Below, piece by piece: positions 12,402 through 48,513 of a stretch of 64,000 nt of DNA. The notes under the pieces were generated by a model, which did not search any database, had not been told where the DNA came from, and saw nothing but the letters and a program-made list of their open reading frames with translations. The position numbers and the translations under genes were made by a program. Source of the stretch: Acidobacteriaceae bacterium (GTDB taxonomy: Bacteria; Acidobacteriota; Terriglobia; Bryobacterales; Bryobacteraceae); assembly GCA_019240405.1 (NCBI GenBank), contig JAFAYL010000027.1:1-64000 (forward strand), in the 5' to 3' direction. Within the stretch, counting starts at the first letter, position 1. Each line of letters starts with the position of its first letter.

Positions 12402-15002
12402 CTAACGTGATCCTTCGATTAGCCAGTTGCCGCTGCGGTTAGCGAGCAGGTAAGTTACTTTCACCTCTGGACTGTGTTTCTGAACGCCGTCGCTGAACAC
12501 CTCGTCCACCTGTTGCACGCAATCGATCGTAGCGTGATCGCCTTCGATCTTCGGACTCGAAGTAGGTTGAATCCGCACGAATATGGAGCGCGCCGCTGAA
12601 AGCTCTTTCTCCACGGTTCGGCGGGCCAACTCCGGCCGAATCGCGGTGATGCTCGCGACATCTTTGGTATTCCAGGCGTCCGAGTATTTTTCTAACGCTG
12701 CGATCGCTGCACTGGCATCCCGCGACTGTGCCTTGGCGCCGGCTCGCGCCGGTGTCGAGGTTTGAGCATCATTCGCCGCATGCTCCGATTTTGGGCTGGC
12801 TTCAGCGCCCTGCGGAGTCGCATCCTGTGGACTGCCCGACGGCCCAGTCTGTAGGGCGGGATTGGCCGAGGATGGCGAAGCCGAACTCGAGGGAGCCGGA
12901 TTTGGAGGTATCGCGCTGGGGCGTGCCGGGTTCGGTGTTGGCGTAAGAGGCGGAGCCGGAGGCACTGGGACCGGCGCAGGTTGCGTCACTGGCGTCGTTG
13001 CTTCAGGCGCTGTTTCGGGACGCCGGATTACTTTGATCACACGCTCCGTCCCGGCTACAACCTCGTCTTCAGCTAAAACACCCAGGTCGGGGGCCCTCAC
13101 GATGTGCGGAATGAGCGCAATCAGGATATCGTCGTTCTCGTGTGATTTGACCCTGGTTCCGAAGAGGTATCCGAGCACGGGAATGTTGGCAACGCCGGGG
13201 ATGCCGGAAATCGAATTCTGATCGTTTGTCAGAGATAGACCGCCAAGAACGCTGACTTCGCCGTCCTTCATGCGGATATTCGCCTCATTCACCCGCTGGC
13301 CGATGATTGGCTGCTGAACGCCCGCAATTGTCTCGGTGCTCGTAACGTTTGAGATCTCAACTTTGATGTGCATGCTGACATCGTCCGGCCCATTCACATG
13401 GGGCTCCAAATCAACGTTTACGCCTACGTCCACTTCTTGGAACTGTGTCGTCGCGTAGGGAATCGCGCCCGGGGTGGCCACGGCAGAGTTCAGCGAACCG
13501 GAGACGTATGGAATTTTGCTGCCGATTTTCAGCGACGCTTTGCCGCCGTCGGTAACGCGAATTTGGGGTCGCTGCATCACGCGCGTATTTGCATCCTGCA
13601 TTAATGCCTGGATCAGTGCGCCGGGCATAGTGATCGAATAATCGCTCGTTGAGATATGTCCCACCTTGGACAGCAGGATGGAATTGCTGGTGCTGTTCCC
13701 CGTAGTGGTCCCGGTGTTTAGACCCGTCGTGCCATTTAGGTCGCCCGTGCTTCCAGTCGTACTTCCAGTGCTCCCGGTTGTACTTCCAGTGCTCCCGGTC
13801 GTGCTGCCAGTGCTTCCAGTTGTACTTCCAGTGCTTCCAGTTGTGCTCCCAGTACTCCCGGTGGTGCTGCCCGTCGATTGTCCTGAGGTTGCAATGGAAT
13901 TGCGTGGGGTAAAGCTGATCGGAACGTTCAGACCGCCGGTTTGCCCTGCAAGCGCCGCTCCAATTGTGCTGCTCCTTTGTTTGTCTACCTCCATGACGAT
14001 CACGTCTAGAACGATCTCCGCCTTAGGCTTGTCGAGATCGTGAACCAGCTTCTCAACAAGAGCGACCGTATCGGGGCTGCCGCGAGCCACAATCGCGTTC
14101 TGGCTTGCGACCTGGAATAGACCCGTCGTCAACTTGGCGCCCGTGCGGACGCCGTTGTAGATCTCGTTGAATTCATTCGGCGTAGTGGCGTTCTGAATAT
14201 AGAAAACCTTCACCACCTCATCCTGGTATTCCAGGCGCTTCTGCTCGCTCTCCTGGGTGACGAAAATCGCGTTCCGGCTGATCGGCTTCCAAAATGTATG
14301 CGTCACCAGCGCGACGTAATTGAGGGCCTCATCCAGCGTTACGTTGTTCAGCTCCAAATTGAAATTCCGCCCAGCCGTGGTTTCAAAACCCTGCGGATCG
14401 AACAGAACGTTGATACCGGCCAGCTTTGCGACGGTCTCATATAGCACGCGCGCCGGCTGGTTGTTCATTTTGAGACTCGTGATTTGGTTCGTAATGGGCC
14501 GGAGCTTGGGAGGACCCTCGAGGGAATTGATACGCCGTTCGACCTCTTGCCGGACTCTCTCAGCAGGGGTCAATACAGGCGTGCCCGCAGGGAGTTTGTT
14601 GCGCTCCTTGATCATGGCCGTGGTCAGCCGAATTTCTTGAATGGCGATCTGGGAGGACGGATCCGACAGGAATGCCTTTTGAAACGCAACGAGCGCCTCA
14701 TCCAGCTTTTGCTGCTCTTGCAGTCTCTTGCCTTCCGCGATGTGACCTTCCGCTGCCTTGCTGCGAACGCGTTGATCGGCTAGCAAGTAGGCGGGGTCAC
14801 GAGGGTCAGTGGCGAGCGCCTGGTCGTAAAAGTTCAGCGCGATGTCATACTGCTTTTGAGCCTCAGCCTTTTCGCCCTCCTTGAGGAGTTTGTCTCCCTT
14901 TTTGGTGTGGCCGTCCACCGAAAAAACGGTAAGGGAGATGGCCGAGGCGAGCACGGCGAATCGCCGTAATCCGTTCCAAAACTTCACTTTAACCGAATCC
15001 AA
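12402..15002 (-). CDS. Secretin of a type II secretion/type IV pilus-like system, with TPR start and NTF2-like tail
   Basis: 866 residues forming the outer-membrane ring through which the pseudopilus or substrates pass. A hydrophobic N-terminus (FAVLASAISLTVFSV) is followed by TPR-like helices at about 32-125, an STN-type domain at about 175-250, an N1-type domain at 262-325, and the secretin barrel from about 328 to 640 with VDVGVNVDLEPHV and the end motif SGIPGVANIPVLGYLFG. A Thr-Gly-Ser tandem repeat interrupts it at about 376-420. A Pro-rich linker leads to an extra C-terminal domain at about 765-866 (ALEKYSDAWNTKDVASI to GNWLIEGSR) that resembles SnoaL/NTF2-like folds. The start is uncertain: TTG at 15,002 or GTG at 14,990. 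It is the first gene of a three-gene unit. Confidence 0.9.
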   Translation of the reverse strand: MDSVKVKFWNGLRRFAVLASAISLTVFSVDGHTKKGDKLLKEGEKAEAQKQYDIALNFYDQALATDPRDPAYLLADQRVRSKAAEGHIAEGKRLQEQQKLDEALVAFQKAFLSDPSSQIAIQEIRLTTAMIKERNKLPAGTPVLTPAERVRQEVERRINSLEGPPKLRPITNQITSLKMNNQPARVLYETVAKLAGINVLFDPQGFETTAGRNFNLELNNVTLDEALNYVALVTHTFWKPISRNAIFVTQESEQKRLEYQDEVVKVFYIQNATTPNEFNEIYNGVRTGAKLTTGLFQVASQNAIVARGSPDTVALVEKLVHDLDKPKAEIVLDVIVMEVDKQRSSTIGAALAGQTGGLNVPISFTPRNSIATSGQSTGSTTGSTGSTTGSTGSTTGSTGSTTGSTGSTTGSTGSTTGSTGDLNGTTGLNTGTTTGNSTSNSILLSKVGHISTSDYSITMPGALIQALMQDANTRVMQRPQIRVTDGGKASLKIGSKIPYVSGSLNSAVATPGAIPYATTQFQEVDVGVNVDLEPHVNGPDDVSMHIKVEISNVTSTETIAGVQQPIIGQRVNEANIRMKDGEVSVLGGLSLTNDQNSISGIPGVANIPVLGYLFGTRVKSHENDDILIALIPHIVRAPDLGVLAEDEVVAGTERVIKVIRRPETAPEATTPVTQPAPVPVPPAPPLTPTPNPARPSAIPPNPAPSSSASPSSANPALQTGPSGSPQDATPQGAEASPKSEHAANDAQTSTPARAGAKAQSRDASAAIAALEKYSDAWNTKDVASITAIRPELARRTVEKELSAARSIFVRIQPTSSPKIEGDHATIDCVQQVDEVFSDGVQKHSPEVKVTYLLANRSGNWLIEGSR
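13743..13877 (-). repeat. Coding tandem repeat (Thr-Gly-Ser) in the secretin gene
   Basis: Roughly 15-18 bp units repeat here and encode alternating TGS and TTGS segments, a flexible low-complexity linker inside the secretin. Copy number may vary between strains by slippage. A long plus-strand frame across it, rich in Val and Pro, is only its shadow. Confidence 0.8.
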
Positions 15003-42769: not shown

Positions 42770-44245
42770 ATGATCCACGTTTCCATGCGCGTTGCGGACC
42801 TCGCCGTCATAGCAGCCTACCTCCTATTTATTACCTGGTTCGGAGCGCGATTCAAAGAGAGCCAGAAGAGTCTCCGAGACTACTTTCTTGCCGGTCGCGG
42901 GGCTCCCTGGTGGGCCATAGCCTTTTCCATCGTGTCGGCGGAGACCAGCACGCTTACCGTTATCGGTACCCCGGCCCTCTCTTTCGCGGGAAATTTTCGC
43001 TTTTTGCAGTTGATCCTCGGATACCTGCTCGGCCGAATTGTGATCTCCATCCTTTTTCTACCCCAATATTTTCGTGGAGAAATGTACACCGCTTATGAGC
43101 TCATGCAGCGGCGCTTTGGTTCCCACGTCCGGAAATTTACGGCTGGAACGTTTCTGCTTCTCAGAGCCCTCGCCGAGGGCGTCCGCGTCTTTGCGGTGTC
43201 CATCGTAATCTCCGTTGTGCTCGGAACCGGCGAAGTTGCTTCCATCGCCCTCATCGTGTGCCTCACGCTCTTCTATACCTTTGAAGGCGGGATGACAGCC
43301 GTCATCTGGACTGACGTCGTTCAGATGATCCTCTATGTCGGCGGCGCGCTTCTGAGCTTCTTCCTCATGCTCTCTCTCATTCCCGGAGGTTGGCCGCACG
43401 TACTCGCTATTGCCGGTCCCGCCCACAAGTTTCGCTTCTTCGATTTTCGTTTCTCGCTTTCCTCTGCATTCTTCCAGCGCAACTATAGCTTCTGGGCCGG
43501 CCTGATCGGCGGCTGTTTCCTCACAACTGCCAGCCATGGAACCGAACAGCTTCTTGTCCAACGTCTCCTATCGGCGAAGAATGAGCGCGAAAGCCGCTTA
43601 GCGCTGTTCTCGAGCTGGATCGTAATTTTCTTTCAATTTGCCCTTTTTTTGGCTATCGGCGTGCTCCTCTATGTTCACTACCTTGACATTGCACGCCCGG
43701 CGCCCGCGATCCCGGAACGCACTTATCCGGAATTCGTCTGGAACAATCTCCCTGTCGGCTTGGCCGGTCTCGTGATTGCCGCCATTCTCGCCGCCGCAAT
43801 GTCCAATTTGAGCGCTGCGCTCAATGCGCTCGCGTCCACCAGCGTTATGGATTTTCTGAAGCCGCTCTGGCCCGCCTACCCGGAAGCTCGCTACTTGCAG
43901 ATCGCCCGCTGGGCTACGGTCGTGTGGGGTGTCATTCTGTTCGCAGTGGGTTTGATCGCGCGCCACTGGGGACGCGTCCTCGAAGCGGGGCTTTCTATCG
44001 CATCCATCCTCTACGGCGCGCTTCTCGGAGTTTTTCTACTTGGCGTGCTCACGCGCCGCCCCGGTGAATGGTCGGCTATCGCGGGCATGAGCGCCGGTTT
44101 CGCAGCTACCTTGCTCTTTCGCAGCCATGTCGCCTATACGTGGTATGTGCTGACAGGATCCGTCGCAACGTTTGTCGTCGGCTATGCCGCAAGCTTTTTG
44201 ATCCCCGATCGCGCGCCGGTCGAACATGCCCGTGCCGTACGATGA
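42770..44245 (+). CDS. Sodium/solute symporter (SSS family)
   Basis: 491 residues with about 13 membrane helices. SSS marks: VIAAYLLFITWFGARF, SLRDYFLAGRGAPWWAIAFSIVSAETSTLTVIGTPA, FTGG-like turn FEGGMTAVIWTDVVQM, and the sodium-site AILAAAMSNLSAALNALASTSVMDF. Imports an unknown solute with sodium. The end overlaps the start of the APC permease by 20 bp, so the two transporters are probably one unit. Related in family, but not near-identical, to the symporter at 18,589-20,286. Confidence 0.92.
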   Translation: MIHVSMRVADLAVIAAYLLFITWFGARFKESQKSLRDYFLAGRGAPWWAIAFSIVSAETSTLTVIGTPALSFAGNFRFLQLILGYLLGRIVISILFLPQYFRGEMYTAYELMQRRFGSHVRKFTAGTFLLLRALAEGVRVFAVSIVISVVLGTGEVASIALIVCLTLFYTFEGGMTAVIWTDVVQMILYVGGALLSFFLMLSLIPGGWPHVLAIAGPAHKFRFFDFRFSLSSAFFQRNYSFWAGLIGGCFLTTASHGTEQLLVQRLLSAKNERESRLALFSSWIVIFFQFALFLAIGVLLYVHYLDIARPAPAIPERTYPEFVWNNLPVGLAGLVIAAILAAAMSNLSAALNALASTSVMDFLKPLWPAYPEARYLQIARWATVVWGVILFAVGLIARHWGRVLEAGLSIASILYGALLGVFLLGVLTRRPGEWSAIAGMSAGFAATLLFRSHVAYTWYVLTGSVATFVVGYAASFLIPDRAPVEHARAVR

Positions 44246-45665
44246 ACATCTCAACGGCGGGCCGCTGACTCGCGTCGCCTCTCCTTACCGCGTCTCCGGC
44301 CCCAGCCTGCAGCGTGTCCTCGGCTTATGGAGCGCCGTTTCCATCGTCGTCGGCACCGTTATCGGCAGCGGAGTCTTTCTCGTCCCCTCGACGATGATCC
44401 GCTACGTCGGCTCGCCGCGAAATCTATTTATCGTTTGGATCGTTGCCGGCCTGCTCAGCCTTTTCGGCGCCTTGACCTATGCCGAGCTCGCTGCCGCGCT
44501 TCCCGAAGCCGGTGGCGAATACGTCTACCTCAGCGAAGCCTATGGGCCGTTCTGGGGTTTTTTATATGGTTGGACTCAGTTCTGGGTTGCGAAAAGCGGC
44601 TCCATCGCCACGCTTGCCGCAGGTTTCTACACATATCTCACCCTCTTCGTCCCCGTTCTCGGCGCGACACTCTGGACCGTTCCGTTGCACATCGGACCGG
44701 GCGGCAGTCTGCTCGAAATTCATTACGGTCAGCTCGTCGCCATAGCACTCATCTTGTCCCTCGCTGGTGTGAACTACATCGGGGTCCGCTCAGGTGGGAA
44801 CATTCAAGTCCTGGTCACCGCAATCAAGATGCTTTTGATCGCCGGGATCGTTTTCGTCGGACTCTTCTCGGGACGCGGCGAAAGTTCGCATTTCACCGGA
44901 CACATTTCGAGCCTCGGCGGAGTGGCCGGATTTTTCGCAGCAATGGTCAGCGCTCTCTGGGCGTACGACGGATGGAACAACGTAAGCATGGTCTCTTCGG
45001 AGATCTGTGAGCCGCAGCGCAATCTTCCCCGCGCGCTCATCTTCGGTACCGCCGCTGTGATCCTGACTTATATTTCTATCAATCTAGCCTACTTTTACGT
45101 CTTGACCCCGGAGCAAGTGGCTGCTAGCCATCGCGTCGCGGCCGACATGATCGCAAGCCTCTACGGTCCGCTCGCCACCCATGCCGTCGCCATAGCCGTC
45201 ATGATCTCCATTTTTGCGGCCCTGAATGGTTCTATTCTTTCCGGCGGGCGAATCCCCTATGCCATGGCGCGCGACCGGCTTTTTTTCCGCTACGCAGCCG
45301 ATGTCCACCCGAAATTCAGAACGCCAGGACACGCCATGATCTTGCTGTGCCTCTGGTCTTGCGTCGTCGTCCTCAGCGGCTGGTATGACGACCTCTATAA
45401 TTTCGTCATTTTCGGAAGCTGGATTTTGTACCTCATGACCGCCGTTTCGGTCTTTGTATTGCGCAAAAAAAGACCCGACTTACCGCGCCCATACCGTGTG
45501 ATTGGCTATCCCATCGTCCCAGTACTGTTCATTGGCGTAGCGATGCTGCTGCTCATAAGCACGGTCCAGACCAGGCCTCGCGAGTCGCTTATGGGCTTAA
45601 TTCTAATGGGGTTAGCCGTCCCGTTCTACGCTTTCTGGAGAAATTCTCGCCGGTCGCGCCGATAA
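44226..45665 (+). CDS. APC-family amino acid permease
   Basis: 479 residues with 12 predicted membrane helices. The N-terminal GLWSAVSIVVGTVIGSGVFLVPS and the following ELAAALPEAGGEYVYLSEAYGPFWGFLYGW are the APC/LAT signature. SALWAYDGWNNVSMVSSEI is the helix-6 motif. Likely takes up or exchanges amino acids; exact substrate unknown. Overlaps the preceding symporter gene by 20 bp, implying coupled translation. Confidence 0.9.
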   Translation: MPVPYDEHLNGGPLTRVASPYRVSGPSLQRVLGLWSAVSIVVGTVIGSGVFLVPSTMIRYVGSPRNLFIVWIVAGLLSLFGALTYAELAAALPEAGGEYVYLSEAYGPFWGFLYGWTQFWVAKSGSIATLAAGFYTYLTLFVPVLGATLWTVPLHIGPGGSLLEIHYGQLVAIALILSLAGVNYIGVRSGGNIQVLVTAIKMLLIAGIVFVGLFSGRGESSHFTGHISSLGGVAGFFAAMVSALWAYDGWNNVSMVSSEICEPQRNLPRALIFGTAAVILTYISINLAYFYVLTPEQVAASHRVAADMIASLYGPLATHAVAIAVMISIFAALNGSILSGGRIPYAMARDRLFFRYAADVHPKFRTPGHAMILLCLWSCVVVLSGWYDDLYNFVIFGSWILYLMTAVSVFVLRKKRPDLPRPYRVIGYPIVPVLFIGVAMLLLISTVQTRPRESLMGLILMGLAVPFYAFWRNSRRSRR

Positions 45666-45691
45666 GAATAGTGACATATTTGACAGATCTT

Positions 45692-45723
45692 CAATTTAGT
45701 ACTAGGACGGCAATTTAGTACTA
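45692..45723. promoter_or_regulatory. Palindromic TTTAGTACTAAA repeats ahead of the AT-hook gene
   Basis: CAATTTAGTACTA occurs at 45,692-45,704 and again at 45,711-45,723, 19 bp apart (nearly two helix turns). The second copy extends to a perfect 12-bp palindrome. TTGACA at 45,680-45,685 lies just upstream as a possible -35 box, though no good -10 box is seen. A further partial copy (TTTAGTACC) occurs in the gene at about 46,033. The layout is that of an operator. Confidence 0.5.
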
Positions 45724-45863
45724 AACCGAGCAGCCTTTTATTGAAATTCACCATAAAGTGGAATTAAACTTCTTTTAAAACATCCGATGGTAAATAATCA
45801 ATCCTGGATGGGTGTGAACGCAGTCGAACATCGACCTGGGATGAGAGCGGGAGGTCGTTTATT

Positions 45864-46127
45864 TTGGACATCGACAAAATGCTTAATGAGCTGCGCGTCG
45901 AACGCCAGCAGATCGAAGAAGCAATTCTCACCCTGGAACGGCTAGCGAGAGGTCGCGGAAGGCGTCGCGGTCGTCCACCGTCATGGCTGAAGGAAGCAGC
46001 CGCATCGGCATCCGAGGGGAGTGAAAGTGAGCAGTTTAGTACCAACGGAGCAACTCCGGCTGAGCCCAGGCGCCGTGGCCGTCCGCCAGGCAGCAAGAAG
46101 CAGCTAGCTCAAGCCGCTGAGGCCTGA
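45864..46127 (+). CDS. Small AT-hook DNA-binding protein
   Basis: 87 residues from a TTG start with GGGAGG about 9 bp ahead. The first 30 residues are a charged helix (IDKMLNELRVERQQIEEAILTLERLA), perhaps a dimerising coiled coil. Two AT-hook words follow, GRRRGRPPSW near 35 and RRRGRPPGSKK near 75, separated by a Ser/Ala/Glu linker. AT-hooks hold the minor groove of AT-rich DNA, so this could be a nucleoid or regulatory protein, fitting the AT-rich repeats in front of its gene. Function otherwise unknown. Confidence 0.75.
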   Translation: MDIDKMLNELRVERQQIEEAILTLERLARGRGRRRGRPPSWLKEAAASASEGSESEQFSTNGATPAEPRRRGRPPGSKKQLAQAAEA

Positions 46128-46170: not shown

Positions 46171-48513
46171 TCAATACAGCAGGTACGGTTTTCTTCGCTC
46201 GCTGAACTCTCGGGCCTGTTCCTGCGCCTCGCTCCAAATCGCGCTCGCATCTTTCCCCGATTTAATCCCCTCCAGCGCCGGCCGGTTACCGATCAAGTAG
46301 CGGTCCTTTTCAAAATCCAGCTTTCCTGGAAACAACTGTTGAACTCCGCTCGCAACCTCAATGCCGAGCCTCGTGCTGTCAAAAGCCTCCCGGTCCGTAA
46401 TTACGAACCGGACGCCTTCCACTTCGCGTCCTTCGAAATACGAAGACGTCGGTCGAAATTTTGTCGCGTAGACTCGCACGCCCGGAATAAACCGGGAATT
46501 CAAATATCGCGCCAGTATCTGTCCCTGAATCCAGTCTGCGCCAATCTGCTCGAATGGCGCGTCAGTTCCGCGGCCCACTGAATAATTCGTTCCCGCTTCC
46601 AACATTGCAATACCGGGATAAAGCAGCGCCGCGTTCAAACTTCGCATGTTCGGCGACGGGTTCACCCAAGTGAGCGTGGTTGTATCGAACCAATCGCCGC
46701 GCTCCCAATTCTTCATTTTGATCACGTGGAGATCCACGCCCCAGTGCTGCTCGCTGTTGGCCATCGTCGCGAGCTCGCCGAATGTCATCCCATGCCGCAG
46801 CGGCATATCGTAGCATCCGACGAAGGATTCCAGATCCTTGTCCATCAACGGACCCTCTACGTGTGTGCCGGTTATCGGATTCGGCCGGTCGAGAAGAAAG
46901 AACGGTTTCTTCGCCTTGCCTGCCTCCTCAAGCGCGTACAGCATCGTGCACGAATACGTGTAAAACCGCGCGCCCACATCTTGAATGTCGTAGATGATCG
47001 CATCCAGATTCTGCATTTGTTCCGCCGTCAAGCGCCGCTGATTCGGCTGATACAGGCTGATCACTGCTAATCCCGTCTTCGGGTCAGTGGCATTTCCCAC
47101 ATCTGTATCCTGCGTGCCGCTGATTCCGTGTTCGGGCGAAAAAAGCGTCTTCACGTTGACTCCCGATGCGAGCATCAGGTCCACGTTGCGCCGTCCCCCG
47201 CGATCTATTCCGGTGTGATTTGTGATTAAACCGATCCGCTTCCCCTTCAGCTCTGCGAAACCATCTTGTTCCAGGACGTCAAGCCCGGTTAGTGTCTCGG
47301 CATTCCGCTGCACGACTCGGTGAACGCCAGCCCCGGTGATCGTCTCGTTATACCCGGTAAGCTCGACATGCTGTATGTCAATGCCGAAAGAAGCCGCTAC
47401 CGCAGTCGCGACTCGCGCGCGTAGAGAACTGAGCGACTTGCCTCTCGTCGGATGCACCACGTTGGTCATCAAAATCACGTAGGAGTTCGTCCAGGGATCC
47501 AGCCAAATGGAGGTTCCCGTGAACCCGGTGTGACCGTAGGAACCAATAGGGTACAGCTCGCCGCGATTGCTCGAAAAAGGCGAATCGATATCCCATCCTA
47601 GGCCTCTTAGAATGGGTTGATCCGCGGGACTGCCCGGCTCGGTGAACTTCCTCACCGTCATCGGATCAAAGATACGTACCCCTCCGCGTTCTCCCTTGCC
47701 GAGCATCGTCTCGGCGTATTTCGCGAGATCGTCGGCCGTCGTGAATACCCCTGCATGACCCGCAATTCCGCCCATATAACGGGAGGTCGGGTCGTGTACC
47801 ACGCCGCGAAGTGGTTGCGCCGTATCGTTATCTATATCTATCTCCGTCGGCGCGATCCGTGAACGCAGCGCGGCAGGAGGCTGAAAGTCGGTATCGCTCA
47901 TCCCAAGTGGCGCGAAAATCTGCTGGTGCGCAAATTCCGACAACGTCATCCCCGAAAGCCGGCGCACGATTTCGCCCAGCAGAATGAAATTGATATCGCT
48001 ATATATGAAGCGCGCCCCCGGAGGCGCAATGGGTTTATCCGTAAGCGCCTTCTGAATTCCCGTCTCGTATCCGCTCCACCGTGGAATCAGATCCAAGTCG
48101 GGTCGCAGCCCTGAAAAATGGGTCAACAAAAGCCGCACCGTGATGTCGCTCTTGCCGGCTTGAAATTCAGGAAGATACTTTGTCACTGGATCGTCCAGCC
48201 ACAACTTTCCTTGCTCGAACAACTTCATCACCGACGGCGTCGTCGCCATCACTTTCGTCAGCGACGCAGCGTCGAAAATGGTGTCTATGGTCATTGGCTC
48301 ACGCTTTGGAATCAAGGCGCGTGAGCCGTACGAATTCCGATACAGAATCCTCCCGTTCCGCCCTACAATCACCACCGCGCCCGGGATCAGCCCGCTCTGA
48401 ACCGCTTCGTTAATCGCCGCATCGAGAGAAGCCGCCGCGCCGAATCTACTCTCTTGCGGTTTCGCCAAGACAAGTTGGCTCGCCAAAACCAGAACAGCTA
48501 CCAGAGATTTCAT
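46171..48513 (-). CDS. Serine beta-lactamase-fold hydrolase fused to DUF1343 (NamZ-like)
   Basis: 780 residues. Signal peptide (SLVAVLVLASQLVLA). The first domain (about 25-385) is a class-C/S12 beta-lactamase fold with the active Ser-Lys pair S84-xx-K87 in ASLTKVMA, YSDINFILLGEI, and HTGFTGTS in place of the KTG box. The second (about 400-780) is DUF1343, whose best-known member NamZ is an exo-N-acetylmuramidase: GKRIGLITNHTGIDRGG, LFSPEHGISG, YDIQDVGARFYTYSCTM, LDRPNPITG, and NPSPNMRSLNAALLYPG. Together they suggest periplasmic breakdown or remodelling of cell-wall fragments. Fused order is complete. Last gene of the hfq unit. Confidence 0.93.
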   Translation of the reverse strand: MKSLVAVLVLASQLVLAKPQESRFGAAASLDAAINEAVQSGLIPGAVVIVGRNGRILYRNSYGSRALIPKREPMTIDTIFDAASLTKVMATTPSVMKLFEQGKLWLDDPVTKYLPEFQAGKSDITVRLLLTHFSGLRPDLDLIPRWSGYETGIQKALTDKPIAPPGARFIYSDINFILLGEIVRRLSGMTLSEFAHQQIFAPLGMSDTDFQPPAALRSRIAPTEIDIDNDTAQPLRGVVHDPTSRYMGGIAGHAGVFTTADDLAKYAETMLGKGERGGVRIFDPMTVRKFTEPGSPADQPILRGLGWDIDSPFSSNRGELYPIGSYGHTGFTGTSIWLDPWTNSYVILMTNVVHPTRGKSLSSLRARVATAVAASFGIDIQHVELTGYNETITGAGVHRVVQRNAETLTGLDVLEQDGFAELKGKRIGLITNHTGIDRGGRRNVDLMLASGVNVKTLFSPEHGISGTQDTDVGNATDPKTGLAVISLYQPNQRRLTAEQMQNLDAIIYDIQDVGARFYTYSCTMLYALEEAGKAKKPFFLLDRPNPITGTHVEGPLMDKDLESFVGCYDMPLRHGMTFGELATMANSEQHWGVDLHVIKMKNWERGDWFDTTTLTWVNPSPNMRSLNAALLYPGIAMLEAGTNYSVGRGTDAPFEQIGADWIQGQILARYLNSRFIPGVRVYATKFRPTSSYFEGREVEGVRFVITDREAFDSTRLGIEVASGVQQLFPGKLDFEKDRYLIGNRPALEGIKSGKDASAIWSEAQEQAREFSERRKPYLLY

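Follow-up and report, generated by a model that had tools for sequence, protein, structure and literature searches.

Repressors such as GalR and lambda CI act from two operators that flank a promoter, with looping of the DNA between them, and in class-I activation the activator is bound upstream of the promoter. RGRPP hooks on a flexible tail are found in the eukaryotic HMGA proteins and in bacterial AT-hook proteins of the CarD type. H-NS and Lsr2 reach into the minor groove with a Q/RGR motif that resembles an AT-hook, and these hooks favor TpA steps over A-tracts (PMC6936261). Our literature search returned no title on AT-hook, H-NS/nucleoid-associated or XRE-regulator work of this kind in Acidobacteria, Solibacter usitatus or Bryobacter, and the nucleoid-type proteins of Acidobacteriota seem to be hardly studied. 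The locus described here comes from a soil bacterium of the order Bryobacterales and was analyzed within a stretch of 64,000 nucleotides, called the window below. An earlier note had singled out two boxes ahead of a small AT-hook gene; judged from the genomes compared, the more interesting feature seems to be a two-operator circuit of the relatives, which the clade of the window has apparently abandoned.

The features of the locus are listed in Table 1. The clade of the window was represented by 16 non-redundant upstream regions, 14 from the same genus plus G024 and L053, and was chosen by the first protein residues, so that its start codons are true by construction. Read by eye, TTGAAT or TTGAAA was present at the putative -35 in 14 of the 16 members, TAAACTTC at the putative -10 in 12 and a GGAGG ribosome binding site in 13. 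In the first 44 codons, the ORF of the window was separated from each of its 15 orthologues in the clade by 14-27 synonymous and 4-11 non-synonymous codon differences. Because synonymous changes outnumbered non-synonymous changes in 15 of 15 comparisons, the ORF behaves as a real gene would.

Table 1. Coordinates of features at the AT-hook locus, numbered from the first nucleotide of the window.
Feature	Position	Strand	Basis or remark
Upstream neighbor, presumably amino-acid-permease-like	44226..45665	+	5' of the AT-hook gene in 66/77 loci
Box 1, CAATTTAGTACTAGGAC	45692..45708	+	TTTAGTACTAGGAC in it is the counterpart of the clade element GGTACTACTAGGAC
Box 2, CAATTTAGTACTAAA	45711..45725	+	contains the 12-bp palindrome TTTAGTACTAAA; second copy found in this genome alone
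Putative -35, TTGAAA	45741..45746	+	18 bp ahead of the -10; consensus match, inferred
Putative -10, TAAACT	45765..45770	+	inferred
Ribosome binding site, GGAGG	45850..45854	+	precedes the TTG start
AT-hook gene, 87 aa, TTG start	45864..46127	+	ORF list; clade comparison
Convergent neighbor, presumably a serine-hydrolase plus NamZ-like protein	46171..48513	-	3' of the AT-hook gene in 41/78 loci

The proposal that the gene encodes a small protein with two AT-hooks was borne out, since RRGRPP occurs twice in the 87-aa ORF and the protein has the GRP core with basic flanks by which AT-hooks are recognized. It begins with MDIDKMLNELRVERQQIEEAILTLERLARGRGRRRGRPPSW, continues through a variable linker and ends in the second hook, RRGRPPGSK. 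The layout of the family is a helix, GRGRRRGRPPAW and often a second AT-hook; among 30 aligned members the first hook was RRGRxP in all 30, the second was absent from some, and the 20 invariant positions all lay within residues 1-41. Hooks of this form had been called uncommon in bacteria. This fails for the present order, in which the family is widespread as judged by homologues in 48 of the 60 genomes searched (the window's own included, some matches being weak). Among the best 80 of 183 loci from a scan of the genome collection, the titles were those of Acidobacteriota except for one 'Arcobacter sp.' record.

AlphaFold2 modeled residues 3-30 of the window protein as a helix with high pLDDT and residues 40-50 as a short second helix at low confidence; the remainder was without a fold (mean pLDDT 70.7, pTM 0.34). 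Heptad spacing, read by eye at positions 7, 10, 14, 17, 21 and 24, suggests that the N-terminal helix could form a dimer or oligomer. Against the Pfam family PF00816 (Histone_HNS) the protein scored 13.4 bits, below the gathering cut-off of 25.6, and Pfam listed Histone_HNS (E up to 1) for 21 of the 30 members, with a best E of 0.0046. NCBIfam listed nothing for the window protein, the PDB sequence search yielded no relative of the family with a solved structure, and no relative of the HMGA or CarD type emerged when Pfam, NCBIfam and PDB were searched by sequence. The family may work as a minimal H-NS-type protein and is at most a candidate member of the H-NS family. The genome of the window also holds a second, diverged AT-hook paralogue (G000:C43:88036-88191, in L151), and in L105, upstream of 3692, such a paralogue lies directly 3' of an apparent 5S rRNA gene (by eye).

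The two boxes ahead of the gene were found as described in the earlier note, 19 bp apart and one of them palindromic. The 13-bp CAATTTAGTACTA is present at 45692-45704 and again at 45711-45723, both copies directly 3' of the permease-like gene and 5' of the likely promoter, and the 12 bp of TTTAGTACTAAA at 45714-45725 form an exact palindrome. A search of the source assembly (4.45 Mb, 95.8% complete), which the earlier note had proposed, found the exact palindrome once. At up to 2 mismatches there were 3 matches in the window compared to 0.55 expected, a number equalled in 1 of 100 shuffles. The box pair is the only exact 13-bp direct repeat within 40 bp in the window besides the repetitive stretch 13759-13832. 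Of 20 order-2 shuffles, 18 gave no such repeat, one gave 1 and one gave 2; taken alone, the repeat is unusual and not extreme. Lengthened to 14 bases, Box 1 had 4 further matches in the genome (at most 2 mismatches), versus 33 for the reversed control. The partial copy said to lie inside the gene, TTTAGTACCAAC, is indeed present at 46035 but is not conserved: at up to 3 mismatches, of the 16 ORFs of the clade only that of the window had it, and we regard it as probably due to chance. Elsewhere in the window, 13720-13880 is repetitive with units of about 21 bp and presumably repeat-coding.

All 16 clade regions contained an element near GGTACTACTAGGACT, followed by TTGAA(T/A) paired with a sequence like TAAACTTC. 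Among relatives, the KBS 96 genome (L061/L017) carries the element. It matched with 2 or fewer of 15 positions mismatched in 9 regions and with 3-4 mismatches in the other 7, the window included. The distance from the start of the element to the -10 was 66-68 bp in 11 of 16 regions. Outlying distances were 55 and 56 bp (L012/L003), 64 bp (L014) and 70 bp (window), and the element of L013 lies about 79 bp from the -10 if aligned on TAGTACTA; the steps, each about 12 bp, look like helical phasing. By this alignment Box 1 is a diverged copy of the clade element. Few boxes of the clade are as diverged as that of the window, whose second, perfect copy sits nearer the promoter. The doubled box with the perfect palindrome was seen only in the genome of the window, the other 15 members having one related box there (by eye). 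The conservation ahead of homologous genes to which the earlier note had looked was thus found, as a related box that the window's clade keeps, for the most part, equally far from the -10. This counts against the view that the boxes are functionless, having arisen by chance or by a neutral tandem duplication in an AT-rich spacer. That view would account for a doubling and a perfect palindrome unique to one genome, for an internal copy that looks accidental and for a repeat that 2 of 20 shuffles reach per window, but we consider it very unlikely. The two boxes are, as part of the explanation that we prefer, probably a locally doubled version of the clade element.

The relatives outside the clade presented a different arrangement. 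In 77 non-redundant upstream regions, a pair of GTTCYGANNTCRGAAC palindromes 80-90 bp apart (3 or fewer mismatches) was present in 43, compared to a mean of 0.02 in an order-1 Markov control of 50 rounds, and at 2 or fewer mismatches the pair was present in 30 regions and in none of the control. All spacings were 82-87 bp. The first copy is followed by a CTTGAA-like -35 and the second lies in the leader (by eye). At up to 2 mismatches GTTCYGANNTCRGAAC was absent from all 16 clade regions, and 27 of the 77 non-clade regions had no copy even when 3 mismatches were allowed. A further pair of GTTC palindromes, 86 bp apart, was seen in genome G019 (L146:1864-1965) ahead of a 389-aa ORF, a possible further target. 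LexA was considered as the binder of either site and rejected: the promoters of 10 lexA and 14 of 15 recA genes from 9 genomes (for the remaining recA the contig ended too early) had no shared operator and gave two weak matches only. Most lexA promoters (L227-L235) have something like TTGACTTTCGN7TTCGCC, possibly a LexA box (by eye).

A candidate for the binder of the GTTCYGANNTCRGAAC operators is an XRE-like regulator. A palindrome of this type precedes its gene in 56 of 60 rows compared, including the window's genome, where it lies 158 bp before the start. At 1 or fewer mismatches it was present in 29 of 30 rows of one set and 27 of 30 of a second, two rows of which seem to duplicate genomes of the first, and a variant occurred 1178-1313 bp past the start of the gene in 22 of 30 rows. 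Counted over 15 genomes on one strand, GTTCYGN4CRGAAC had 59 places to the control's 47, which we do not take as above control. The product is a helix-turn-helix protein of about 260 aa. HTH_3, HTH_19 and HTH_31 of Pfam were listed for all three proteins tested, each below cut-off, the best score being that of HTH_31 (23.7 bits, cut-off 27), and the one match to a solved structure was unconvincing (E 0.093). The C-terminal half may resemble S24/LexA; such a half was not listed by Pfam or NCBIfam.

The XRE-like gene was present in 37 of 60 genomes. In a comparison of 49 of 62 genomes, split after the operator survey and ignoring kinship, it was found in 25 of 26 genomes whose AT-hook gene had one or more operator-like sites, compared to 13 of 23 genomes whose AT-hook gene had none; operator-bearing genomes in which no XRE-like gene was detected were G033 and G087. 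GTTCGG-type variants were found at both the AT-hook and the XRE-like promoters in the sister genomes G034 and G106. Because a GTTCGG-type variant at the AT-hook gene of L082 stands with an ordinary XRE-like promoter in the same genome, covariation of operator letters between the two promoters appears weak.

The GTACTA-type element has a second place beside the XRE-like gene. Exact GGTACTACTAGNAC had 4 matches in 16 genus genomes, as did the reversed control; three were ahead of the AT-hook gene and the fourth was beside the XRE-like regulator gene. A looser pattern gave 14 matches in 17 genus genomes versus 20 in the control, with 5 ahead of the AT-hook gene, 4 beside the XRE-like gene at a small-peptide gene and 5 elsewhere. 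Genome-wide counts are not above control and the case for the element rests on its place. The small ORF beside the XRE-like gene was readable in 16 of 16 clade rows (by eye) and has a signal-peptide-like start followed by one to many proline-rich units, e.g. PPLPNPNSPYPP. In 9 of the 16 rows this gene has an element (4 or fewer of 16 mismatched) whose start is 19-33 bp ahead of a variant of the GTTC palindrome; elsewhere in the 30 loci examined there were 7 such matches. This distribution argues for a binder whose regulon is very small. We rejected a broad regulon of the GTAC element, since only 5 of the 14 looser matches lay off the two recurrent places and their contexts were mixed. The XRE-like gene itself stands in a cluster with genes for a 150-175-aa protein (e.g. 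DLWLRDLSHIRTSYGRLVYLAGLRNPDTGRYEHYG), the small signal-peptide-like ORF and a membrane protein (L136:3051-5546, L137:2859-5501, L138:2178-4766 and, as clade rows, L153-L176). The proline-rich units, one to many, differ among genomes, and the cluster may be a secreted-peptide system.

These results bear on what binds the element. The earlier note had favored self-control, by which the AT-hook protein would bind both TAGTACTA boxes and control its own gene. The boxes do lie in AT-rich DNA before the gene, each adjoined by AATTT, and TAGTACTA has TpA steps of the kind that the hooks of H-NS and Lsr2 favor (PMC6936261). Self-control was nevertheless not supported: the core of the box is GTAC, the family has a different pair of palindromes ahead of it in 43 of the 77 upstream regions outside the clade, and the internal copy is not conserved. 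Self-binding is made less likely still because the element also precedes the unrelated small-peptide gene, and we regard autoregulation as unlikely. Alternatively, the XRE-like regulator might also bind the GTACTA-type element, or might have switched specificity in the window's clade. Both types of element stand side by side at the small-peptide gene, yet the clade's XRE-like gene retains an ordinary GTTC palindrome before itself, and we think a shared or switched binder quite unlikely. A separate factor, probably an activating one because the position of the element suits a class-I activator site, is likelier on the GTACTA-type element than self-binding.

GTAC sites also occur outside the clade. 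In 50 operator-type regions TAGTAC/GTACTA was in excess (17 versus 3.6), while the full GTAC motif, by a matrix trained on sites that it re-finds, was barely above the shuffles (6 of 50 versus 2.1, shuffle maximum 6); some GTAC matches in these loci are apparently within the coding end of the permease (by eye). A third group, of loci without operators, had GTAC pairs 14-19 bp apart in 6 of 9 compared to 0.34 in shuffles, a lead only, since the 9 were picked after looking. The six (L021, L073, L104, L107, L111 and L116) resemble the window in place and, with its 19 bp, in spacing.

The start codon differs between the clade and its relatives. Among the same-genus loci L002-L016 (n = 15), 14 start with TTG and 1 with GTG, whereas 74 of 77 non-clade loci start with ATG. 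The same-genus set was defined by kinship and is thus independent of the choice by first residues. TTG and GTG are the weaker starts, and a weaker start would fit translation lowered after repression was lost. In a tree of the XRE-like protein, 14 of 15 clade rows fell in one supported group, which G024 did not join, although a single origin may hold; the root of the tree is arbitrary. Seven of the 10 rows without operators formed a second group (support 100/100). Two further families of the order have operator pairs as well (G036; G043 and G048), so that the clade has probably lost them.

The explanation that we consider on balance probable is that the gene is held by a repressor in much of the order and has been rewired to the GTACTA element in the window's clade. 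Its product would be a small nucleoid-type DNA-binding protein with an N-terminal helix and one or two minor-groove AT-hooks. An autoregulated XRE-like repressor would hold the gene, perhaps with looping, through a pair of GTTCYGANNTCRGAAC operators spaced by about 84 bp (8 helical turns), the first near the -35 and the second in the leader. In the window's clade both operators would have been lost, and the gene would be governed by a separate factor on the GTACTA-type element, which in most members lies 66-68 bp before the -10, in the place of a class-I activator; the TTG start there may compensate for the loss of repression. What was observed directly is the conservation of the sequences, their spacing, the second target and the start codons. 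We put forward a larger claim tentatively, as a possibility somewhat short of probable: an undescribed Bryobacterales circuit joining the autoregulated XRE-like repressor, its two operators about eight turns apart, a new minimal H-NS-like AT-hook family and a secreted proline-rich repeat peptide that differs between genomes, with one clade rewired by operator loss, the GTACTA element and a TTG/GTG start. If true, this would provide a family of small architectural proteins whose operator pair can be tested, together with a natural experiment on how a promoter is rewired.

Compared to the described systems, the window protein is like H-NS and Lsr2 in being small, with a helical N-terminus and a basic G-R hook. 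Unlike H-NS, it stays under the PF00816 cut-off and its model has no confidently folded C-terminal domain, and unlike both H-NS and Lsr2 the family has one or two canonical RRGRPP hooks. With the HMGA and CarD-type proteins it shares RGRPP hooks in a flexible tail, although the N-terminal helix is different. As for GalR and lambda CI, one promoter is flanked in the related genomes by two palindromes whose spacing is close to a whole number of helical turns; here, in contrast, an XRE-like protein would regulate the gene of a nucleoid-type protein, and the pair is absent from the window's clade.
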